Shown in pieces: positions 33,792-34,601 of a DNA stretch of 64,000 nucleotides. The DNA is taken from the NCBI RefSeq assembly GCF_039697315.1, contig NZ_CP155619.1, forward strand, positions 5,580,001 to 5,644,000, given 5' to 3'. The position numbers and the translations under genes are program-made. The notes under the pieces are model-generated. The model was not told the DNA's origin and ran no database searches. It saw only the letters and a program-made list of their open reading frames with translations. The stretch's first letter is position 1. Each line of letters opens with the position of its first letter. This DNA comes from Pseudomonas abietaniphila (lineage in GTDB: Bacteria; Pseudomonadota; Gammaproteobacteria; Pseudomonadales; Pseudomonadaceae).

Positions 33792-33940
33792 CTGTAGGAG
33801 CGCGCTTGCCCGCGATCTGCCGGGAACCGGCAGCAAATCCTGTGTCTGCGGTTTACCTGACACTGCCGAGGTGTTTGGCCTTACTACTACTTCGCAGCAG
33901 ATCGCGGGCAAGATGAAACGCCACCCCGGTCGCTCCCACG
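33792..33940 (-). repeat. Long REPIN-like element, copy 2
   Basis: About 149 bp with ends CTGTAGGAGC and GCTCCCAC. The inner arms are CTTGCCCGCGATCTGC and GCAGATCGCGGGCAAG. On the minus strand its core aligns with the element between kdpC and kdpD (16695-16846), including the CTGCCGGTTCCCGGCAG hairpin. Confidence 0.85.
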
Positions 33941-34114
33941 CCCTCCGGGCAGAAGCAGAGCAGGGCAGCAACCTTGCTCACTGTTCGCCTGGCCCTGGCT
34001 CTTGATGCAGCAGCAGTCCCGCTGCCATCTGATGCGACTCGGGTCCAGGCTGGGTGGAGGCGACGCGCAGCGCGCTTTTTATCCCTGATTCCGAGAAAAG
34101 CCACCCACCACCAA

Positions 34115-34144
34115 TTGACAATCCCCAAGCCGCTTCTCTAGGAT
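34115..34144 (+). promoter_or_regulatory. Sigma70-type promoter
   Basis: A perfect -35 hexamer TTGACA (34115-34120) is separated by 18 bp from TAGGAT (34139-34144), which has four of six -10 consensus bases. The expected start point is near 34151, the first base of the candidate riboswitch. Confidence 0.65.
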
Positions 34145-34149
34145 GCCGC

Positions 34150-34228
34150 TCATGCGCCGATTTAAACAGCTACTTGCGGGGCGCCTGATGTCGTGAAAAC
34201 GCCGTCGAAATTCCGCTAAAGCGCTGGT
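34150..34228 (+). promoter_or_regulatory. Candidate SAM-II-type riboswitch (H-type pseudoknot)
   Basis: Helix P1 pairs GCGCC (34154-34158) with GGCGC (34180-34184). The loop after P1 reads GATTTAAA (34159-34166), the conserved SAM-II L1 motif. P2a pairs CAGC (34167-34170) with GCTG (34223-34226). P2b pairs GCGG (34176-34179, directly before P1 3') with CCGC (34213-34216). CTTGC precedes the P1 3' strand, and GCTAAAG (34215-34221) matches the conserved L3 region. These elements occur in the SAM-II order, which I know from alphaproteobacterial metX/metA leaders. The second loop is long (28 nt). The element would start at +1 of the promoter at 34115-34144. Confidence 0.55.
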
Positions 34229-34235
34229 TCGGTGT

Positions 34236-34270
34236 TGCCTCTCACCGCTGCCCAGCGGAACACTGAGGCA
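34236..34270 (+). promoter_or_regulatory. Nested hairpin before the orphan gene
   Basis: TGCCTC (34236-34241) pairs with GAGGCA (34265-34270), enclosing CCGCT (34245-34249) paired with AGCGG (34254-34258). The outer stem covers the only GAGG before the ATG at 34284. It could be the expression platform of the candidate riboswitch. The GAGG is 15 bp from the ATG, so its role as ribosome-binding site is uncertain. Confidence 0.4.
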
Positions 34271-34283
34271 GAGAAAACACACG

Positions 34284-34601
34284 ATGAGCATTCAATCCAA
34301 TCCGCGCCCCCTCGTTCGTCTGGCGCCTATCGCCAGTCAATTCAATCGCCGTAATCCCAAAATCCTGCTGGGCGGTTCCCATCAGCCTACGCTGTTGCGG
34401 TACCTCGATGGCTGGCCCCGTCGTCAGAACGGCCCCCATGCGTTTCTCATCCAGTTCATCGACGCCAACGAATCCCTTGAACGCTTCACCAATGACCAGT
34501 TTGACCTGGCCGTCGTGCAGGCGCCTTGCGCCGAGCATGCAGACGCGGTGATCCGGCATCTGACGCGCATTGCCCGCCAGGGGCTGATCACGCGTTGCTG
34601 A
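34284..34601 (+). CDS. Orphan 105-residue protein, possible minimal Rossmann-like fold
   Basis: I do not recognise the family. The predicted pattern alternates strands and helices: KILLGGS, a helix through LLRYLDGW, HAFLIQFID, FDLAVVQ, a helix through ADAVIRHLTRIA, and GLITR. The segment FTNDQFDLAVVQ...LTRIARQGLIT loosely recalls the second half of MetW and other class I methyltransferases, but a clear glycine-rich SAM-binding motif is missing. It is the first gene after the candidate SAM-II element. The next gene is convergent, so it is monocistronic. Start at the ATG at 34284. Confidence 0.6.
   Translation: MSIQSNPRPLVRLAPIASQFNRRNPKILLGGSHQPTLLRYLDGWPRRQNGPHAFLIQFIDANESLERFTNDQFDLAVVQAPCAEHADAVIRHLTRIARQGLITRC

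Follow-up and report, generated by a model that had tools for sequence, protein, structure and literature searches.

A SAM-II-type riboswitch candidate with a hairpin-bearing loop upstream of a small MetW-like gene in Pseudomonadaceae

We describe an RNA element with SAM-II-type architecture at positions 34154-34226 (+ strand) of the window, the whole 64,000-nt stretch of Pseudomonas abietaniphila DNA that was analysed (contig NZ_CP155619.1, positions 5,580,001 to 5,644,000). The element is homologous to the SAM-II aptamers of other gammaproteobacteria, and it probably serves as a translational OFF-switch through which S-adenosylmethionine (SAM) controls a small MetW-like gene. SAM is very probably the compound that it senses. 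The best reading of the element is a new variant of the SAM-II class, and not a member of Rfam family RF00521 as curated. A preliminary description of this DNA had proposed a SAM-II-type riboswitch directly at a transcription start, and the evidence below supports most of that interpretation.

Architecture of the element

A sigma-70 type promoter (34115..34144, +) is formed by the -35 box TTGACA (34115-34120) and, after an 18-nt spacer, the -10 box TAGGAT (34139-34144), and it ends 9 nt before the first helix of a pseudoknot. In this helix, P1, the 5′ strand GCGCC (34154..34158) pairs with the 3′ strand GGCGC (34180..34184). Between the two strands lie loop L1 (GATTTAAA, 34159..34166), the 5′ strand of P2a (CAGC, 34167..34170), a bulge (TACTT, 34171..34175) and the 5′ strand of P2b (GCGG, 34176..34179). 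They are followed by a 28-nt loop L2 (34185..34212), the P2b 3′ strand CCGC (34213..34216), loop L3 (TAAAGC, 34217..34222) and the P2a 3′ strand GCTG (34223..34226), all on the + strand. Reading the sequence confirms every coordinate that had been given for the promoter and the three helices. Folding predicts a hairpin inside L2 (stems 34186-34190/34203-34207 and 34192-34194/34199-34201; z = -2.5), followed by the A-rich GAAATT.

The binding pocket in the SAM-II crystal structure is made of U10-12, U20, U21, G22, C23, G42, C43, U44 and A45-47, among which U11, U21, U44, A47 and G22 read the SAM (PMC3764141). The correspondence with the Pseudomonas element is one for one. The equivalents of U10-12 are 34161-34163 in L1, which also holds that of G8; U20/U21 are the last two T of the bulge (34174/34175); G22/C23 and G42/C43 fall in the two strands of P2b (34176/34177 and 34215/34216); and U44 to A47 are the TAAA of L3 (34217-34220).

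The promoter keeps its place among the 57 Pseudomonadaceae elements that we read. In 52 of them, P1 is preceded at a distance of 6-11 nt by TTGACA/TATAAT boxes with at most 4 mismatches, a level reached by 4.8% of random 60-mers drawn from the same loci; two of the other five have 5-mismatch promoters 7-8 nt before P1, and three have poor matches 27-31 nt away. A promoter directly before P1 is the usual SAM-II arrangement (Corbino et al., PMC1273637), and we infer that transcription starts just before P1.

Conservation within Pseudomonadaceae

When a 19-nt segment of the core was searched for with as many as 2 mismatches, it matched in 186 of 199 Pseudomonas genomes, and the reversed control gave 0 matches; the element is therefore not due to chance. 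The segment is single-copy in all but a few genomes, four of which have two each (G044, G077, G117 and G142), and one match (G192, locus L024) is a chance match. A covariance model built from 21 of the Pseudomonas pattern loci (alignment A1), called R1, located the element in all 14 of the remaining genomes, G192 and the 13 that the pattern had missed. Matches to the pattern or to R1 together span all 199 sampled genomes of the genus; of the other 185 pattern genomes, the element was read in 39 and is counted by its pattern in the remainder. R1 also matches four Pseudomonadaceae genomes outside Pseudomonas, three from one genus and one from another (G519, G523, G603 and G360). The 57 distinct elements read thus comprise 39 from pattern genomes, 14 found by R1 only and 4 from other genera.

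P1, GATTT in L1, TTGC, CCGC and TAAA are identical in 57/57 elements, as is the TT of the bulge, and the variation is found mainly in the length of L1, in P2a and in L2. Every nucleotide of the SAM-II pocket is kept in 57/57; the recognising expression itself required the pocket letters, and all the chosen loci passed it. The spacing from TTGC to the P1 3′ strand is two nucleotides in 174 of 177 elements among the matches listed, versus one nucleotide in 45 of the 51 other gammaproteobacterial loci caught.

Covariation and loop structure

Across 41 aligned elements, 99.2% of 533 cells are paired as judged from sequence. A double change occurs at one pair, the third position of P2a, in 6 sequences (G-C to A-U, turning CAGC/GCTG into CAAC/GTTG), and slid registers show none. 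Because P1 and P2b are invariant within Pseudomonadaceae, the family holds this single true double-change pair, and P2b is silent on covariation. The percentage paired, the double-change cells and the score each exceeded all 500 shuffles, which ignore relatedness; the count of double-change pairs was equalled or surpassed in 316 of the 500, and the number of pair types in all 500. The same P2a change is present both in the L057 group and in L139, whose L1 has the common length. In a larger, overlapping set (the 57 plus at least 120 loci, 176 caught among the matches listed), P2a reads CAGC/GCTG in 140, CAAC/GTTG in 13, GAGC/GCTG with three pairs in 13, and the wobble forms TAGC/GCTG and CAGC/GTTG in 6 and 1; the remaining three loci come from Chitinimonas and Parachitinimonas.

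Outside the family, P1 changes on both strands while keeping its five pairs: TCGCC/GGCGA, GTGTT/GACAC, GCGCT/AGCGC and TCACC/GGTGA in other gammaproteobacteria, and GTGGT/GCCAC in phylum-wide loci (best register chosen in each case). Compensatory change had been expected in all three helices among relatives. P2a bears this out, whereas P1 and P2b are constant within the family and P1 covaries only in the wider set.

L2 is 18-62 nt long across the 57 elements, with one or two hairpins predicted in every one (mean z = -2.68, and below -1 in 55). The suspicion of a long-loop variant, which had been raised by the 28-nt L2 of the window, was therefore well placed.

Covariance model searches

The whole window gave no match to Rfam at curated thresholds, and the region 33900-34500 returned only a junk match at E <= 10, with neither RF00521 nor the SAM-II long loops family RF01726 listed. 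The significant SAM-family score by which the preliminary description proposed to check its reading thus failed to appear for the window element even at this permissive limit. RF01726 was likewise not listed at E <= 10 for the relatives scanned; the elements of the Pseudomonas relatives scanned gave no score with RF00521 or any other Rfam family, and of the 12 Pseudomonadaceae listed in one RF00521 scan none matched.

The silence of RF00521 seems to reflect the reach of the model and not a missing core; the standard search misses the element because a hairpin has grown inside a loop. A second covariance model, R2, was built from 28 of 30 fetched RF00521 loci (alignment A2) of other gammaproteobacteria and contains no Pseudomonadaceae sequence. 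With filters off, its two best matches in the window are 34154-34204 (19.2 bits, E = 0.002) and 34207-34226 (13.3 bits, E = 0.067), which are the two halves of the element, split by the long L2. With default filters, R2 takes the whole core as a single match in L002 (22.3 bits, E = 6.4e-4), and it matches the element in all 44 Pseudomonadaceae loci tried, some of them partly (the weakest at about 13.5 bits, E = 0.13).

The form of L2 in Atopomonas hussainii (Pseudomonadaceae; L217) bridges the Pseudomonas element and ordinary SAM-II, as far as its sequence tells: nearly the same core carries a 10-nt L2. This short-loop form scores 54.6 bits with R2 (E = 1.3e-12) and 25.1 bits with RF00521, under the 36-bit cut-off for that family, which gave no match on the Pseudomonas element. 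The element probably began as an ordinary SAM-II and acquired a hairpin. A gammaproteobacterial SAM-II, of the kind standing before metZ, metK and metN-like genes, would have gained the hairpin in L2 and had its P2b lengthened to the present four pairs, more than most other gammaproteobacterial elements have.

Separately, a near-threshold TwoAYGGAY RNA (RF01731; 41.7 of 43 bits) lies upstream of the element in the window's genome (L002, 931-995, - strand).

Relatives in other gammaproteobacteria

RF00521 alone matched 105 of 274 genomes of the class at E <= 0.01, with 24 over the cut-off, and 0/14 control genomes. SAM-II elements in gammaproteobacteria have been in print since 2007-2009 (passages in PMC2258182 and PMC2704228). 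The preliminary description had called the class mostly described in alphaproteobacteria and Bacteroidetes; this understates its spread outside the alphaproteobacteria.

R1 produced a match at E <= 0.1 in 24 of the 274 class genomes, 22 of them outside Pseudomonadaceae. Its E-values are per genome, and about 27/274 would be expected by chance at this level versus the 24 observed; the matches in other genera are also weak singly (20-27 bits). We take these matches to be real because of their sequence, their Rfam calls and their genes, and not because of their number or score. All except L055 show GCGCCGATTTGA..CAGCTTGCGGGCGC..GCTAAAG or a close form. Rfam called SAM_alpha at the same site in 12 of 18 R1 loci scanned (E <= 10), three times over the cut-off (L048, L052 and L039); a neighbouring SAM_alpha copy lies over the cut-off in L051 and below it in L034, and no SAM_alpha call was made in L035, L038, L042 or L043. 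By eye, the genes 3′ of the R1 loci resemble metZ/metY in twelve cases, metK in two and metN in two others. Profile scores identify the gene after L037 as O-succinylhomoserine sulfhydrylase (metZ; 709.9 bits, cut-off 522) and that after L042 as metK (587.6 bits, cut-off 309.4); the gene after L035 has MetN as its best match, at 370.1 bits under a cut-off of 499.7. That relatives stand before metZ and metK supports SAM as the ligand.

Several further observations concern these loci. Of 15 loci searched, a set picked in part for tandems, 10 hold tandem SAM-II-like aptamers (L034, L046, L047, L051, L079, L091, L097, L154, L203 and L263; L079, L091 and L097 belonged to the R2 training set). Each pairs a canonical copy of 67-75 bits (R2) with a divergent second copy 93-172 nt downstream, of 21.8-55.9 bits. 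Such pairs, a terminator copy plus a divergent second one, in other gamma- and betaproteobacteria may be the source of translational forms. Matches below the cut-off to the Burkholderia sRNA Bp2_287 (RF02424) lie opposite SAM-II leaders in nine loci (L034, L043, L045, L046, L052, L053, L154, L203 and L263), and this family may describe the leader of a SAM-II element as read from the opposite strand. On one contig (G785:C1), two nearly identical copies separated by about 22 kb (L137 and L138) carry a SAM-II-like element with P1 TCACC/GGTGA before a regulator-like ORF, assigned by eye, in what is possibly a duplicated mobile region.

The downstream protein

The presumed target is an ORF of 105 aa (34284..34601, +), whose family has a typical size of about 102 aa. 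A profile of this small protein matches within 700 nt downstream of 57/57 Pseudomonadaceae elements and of 116 of 120 named elements among the matches listed, a set that overlaps the 57; it matches 0 of the 46 other gammaproteobacterial SAM-II loci caught. Three of the four exceptions are L154 (Parachitinimonas) and L203 (Chitinimonas), each with a different small protein, and L263 (Chitinimonas). The fourth is Atopomonas (L217), which by eye has a seemingly diverged relative of the small protein. In Chitinimonas taiwanensis (L203) and in L154, a second element stands before a small protein beginning MFDCL (112 and 114 aa), and the gene after it encodes a membrane protein that resembles, by eye, a MATE transporter.

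The small protein has no Pfam match at 1e-3. MetW matches at E <= 0.1 were obtained for 5 of 28 family members (best 0.0042), and hhalign aligned the protein to the MetW of the same genome over 43 columns (probability 77, E = 2e-5). The true metW lies elsewhere in the genome, and the target's resemblance to MetW is weak and partial, scoring 16.9 bits with the NCBIfam MetW model TIGR02081 against a cut-off of 189.5. NCBI records name the protein a class I SAM-dependent methyltransferase or a hypothetical protein. The usual glycine-rich SAM motif was not seen by eye in protein set A4, which makes catalysis doubtful. The protein is perhaps a helper of homoserine activation or of another methionine/SAM step.

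Proposed switching mechanism

Downstream of the aptamer, a putative anti-Shine-Dalgarno sequence GCCTC (34237..34241, +) is complementary to GAGGC (34265-34269) in the Shine-Dalgarno (SD) region GAGGCAGAG (34265..34273, +), and GCCTC and GAGG are both invariant in leader set A3. Three further pairings, all on the + strand, may connect these motifs to the aptamer: an alternative helix CGCTGG/CCAGCG (34222-34227/34252-34257), which would include the P2a 3′ strand; an ON hairpin CGGTG/CACCG (34230-34234/34243-34247), conserved and proposed with the help of fold energies, which has GCCTC in its loop; and an OFF hairpin CGCTG/CAGCG (34246..34257), which appears in predicted folds inside the SD-sequestering helix. 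In the proposed mechanism, when SAM is scarce, the P2a 3′ strand, as part of CGCTGG, would be free to pair with CCAGCG and to stack on the CGGTG/CACCG hairpin, whose loop would hold the anti-SD, and the small gene would be translated. When SAM is bound, L1 and L3 would close on P2 and P2a would sequester GCTG. CAGCG would then pair locally with CGCTG, and GCCTC would pair with GAGGC, masking the SD and turning translation of the roughly 102-aa MetW-like protein OFF.

Folding of the 57 leaders yields energies in this direction. With the P2a 3′ strand held, the mean energy of the best fold that leaves GCCTC unpaired goes up from -17.0 to -14.4 kcal/mol, a cost of 2.6, and that of the unrestricted fold from -18.5 to -16.8, a cost of 1.7. 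In 38 of the 57 leaders, leaving P2a free gives a GCCTC-free fold that equals or exceeds the P2a-held fold in stability; an unpaired GCCTC serves here as a proxy for an open SD, although the SD may pair with other stretches. Among the 11 species printed, five (L004, L008, L010, L134 and L139) have the ON fold as their unrestricted optimum; in the window, the tail on its own favours pairing of TTCGGTGTT with AACACTGAG over the ON fold. In pseudoknot-free folds of the window leader the SD is paired with or without the aptamer strands held, and the predicted folds of this leader alone do not show a switch. With P2a held, GCCTC is unpaired in L002, L008 and L057, and the SD region then pairs with other stretches. 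We infer repression on SAM binding with help from the order of transcription and from the known habit of the class: to our knowledge, the SAM-II switches described so far repress.

The same folds bear on the opposite direction of control, in which SAM would stabilise P1, free TCGGTG from GCGCCGA and let the CGGTG hairpin hide the anti-SD, opening the SD. The pseudoknot-free minimum free energy fold of the window leader does pair GCGCCGA with TCGGTGT and the SD with GCCTC, and holding P2a leads to the CGGTG/CACCG hairpin in some species, including L002, though the SD there pairs elsewhere. However, P2a pairing competes with CGCTGG/CCAGCG, and the SD of the window stays paired even with the pseudoknot constrained; together with the repressing habit of the class, this makes an ON-switch unlikely. 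A SAM-II-derived fold might instead have changed its specificity, reading SAH or another adenosyl compound, or binding SAM so weakly that it is constitutive. Such a change could accompany a target that is no known methionine gene, an element that Rfam does not score and an unusually invariant core, but U11, U21, U44, A47 and G22, which read SAM, are all kept and relatives precede metZ and metK, and we regard it as quite improbable. Least probable, to the point of being hard to credit, is a leader structured for another purpose (a protein site, a small RNA or a leader peptide from the ATG at 34152) that resembles SAM-II by chance. Rfam has no match, and the reading frame of at least one database protein, P0050 (152 aa), runs across the RNA, its first codons passing through the aptamer from the ATG at P1 (34152 in the window). 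This upstream ATG is, however, absent in 10 of 29 loci printed (counted by eye), and the likeness to SAM-II covers all pocket positions, the helix order and the promoter placement, with an intermediate in existence. The extension of P0050 is probably a wrong start call, which helps to hide the RNA. Four database proteins (P0050, P0065, P0066 and P0100) are about 50 residues longer than the others. We retain the SAM-II-type OFF-switch as the preferred reading.

Discussion

The Pseudomonas element shares with SAM-II (RF00521, also called SAM_alpha or the metA element) the order of P1, P2a and P2b, GAUUU in L1, UUGC, GC-UAAA, a promoter a few nucleotides before P1 and the A-rich 3′ part of L2. 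It differs from SAM-II in its 18-62 nt L2 with one or two predicted hairpins, its 4-bp P2b, its position below Rfam detection and its target, which is no known met gene. In alpha- and betaproteobacteria, SAM-II is usually associated with terminators, according to passages of PMC2258182, whereas the Pseudomonas leader shows no terminator by eye and would act at translation. The SAM-II long loops family (RF01726), listed for Bacteroidetes and marine samples (PMC2864571), resembles it, by name and by that listing, as a SAM-II with longer loops, although its model does not score the Pseudomonas element at E <= 10. SAM-V of Pelagibacter has the SAM-II-type binding core in common with it; SAM-V is described as being without the final 3′ pairing element (PMC2704228), and we rejected this identity since P2a is present and covaries in the Pseudomonas element.

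Leyn et al. (2014; PMC4239095) describe in betaproteobacteria a metXZ leader element, a pseudoknot that precedes metX/metZ and is followed by a terminator. By its description it probably belongs to the same SAM-II group, and it differs from the Pseudomonas element in its control by a terminator. The passages of that paper available to us place SAM_alpha only in Rhizobiales and Rhodobacterales, and for eight Pseudomonadaceae genomes their methionine-regulon survey gives MetR, SahR and SAH riboswitches and no SAM_alpha. Searching the open literature by listings and passages, we found no paper on a SAM-II riboswitch in Pseudomonas.

On balance, we favour the view that the element represents a SAM-II subclass specific to Pseudomonadaceae, with one copy per genome and a hairpin-bearing L2, which descended from the usual gammaproteobacterial SAM-II and came to control a new MetW-like regulatory protein of about 102 aa. 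It would form a SAM-sensing branch of methionine control that does not appear in the available passages of the survey (PMC4239095). If this is true, Pseudomonas has a SAM riboswitch that the standard model missed, inserted hairpins are shown to be able to hide a riboswitch from Rfam searches, and an unstudied protein becomes a probable part of methionine/SAM homeostasis.
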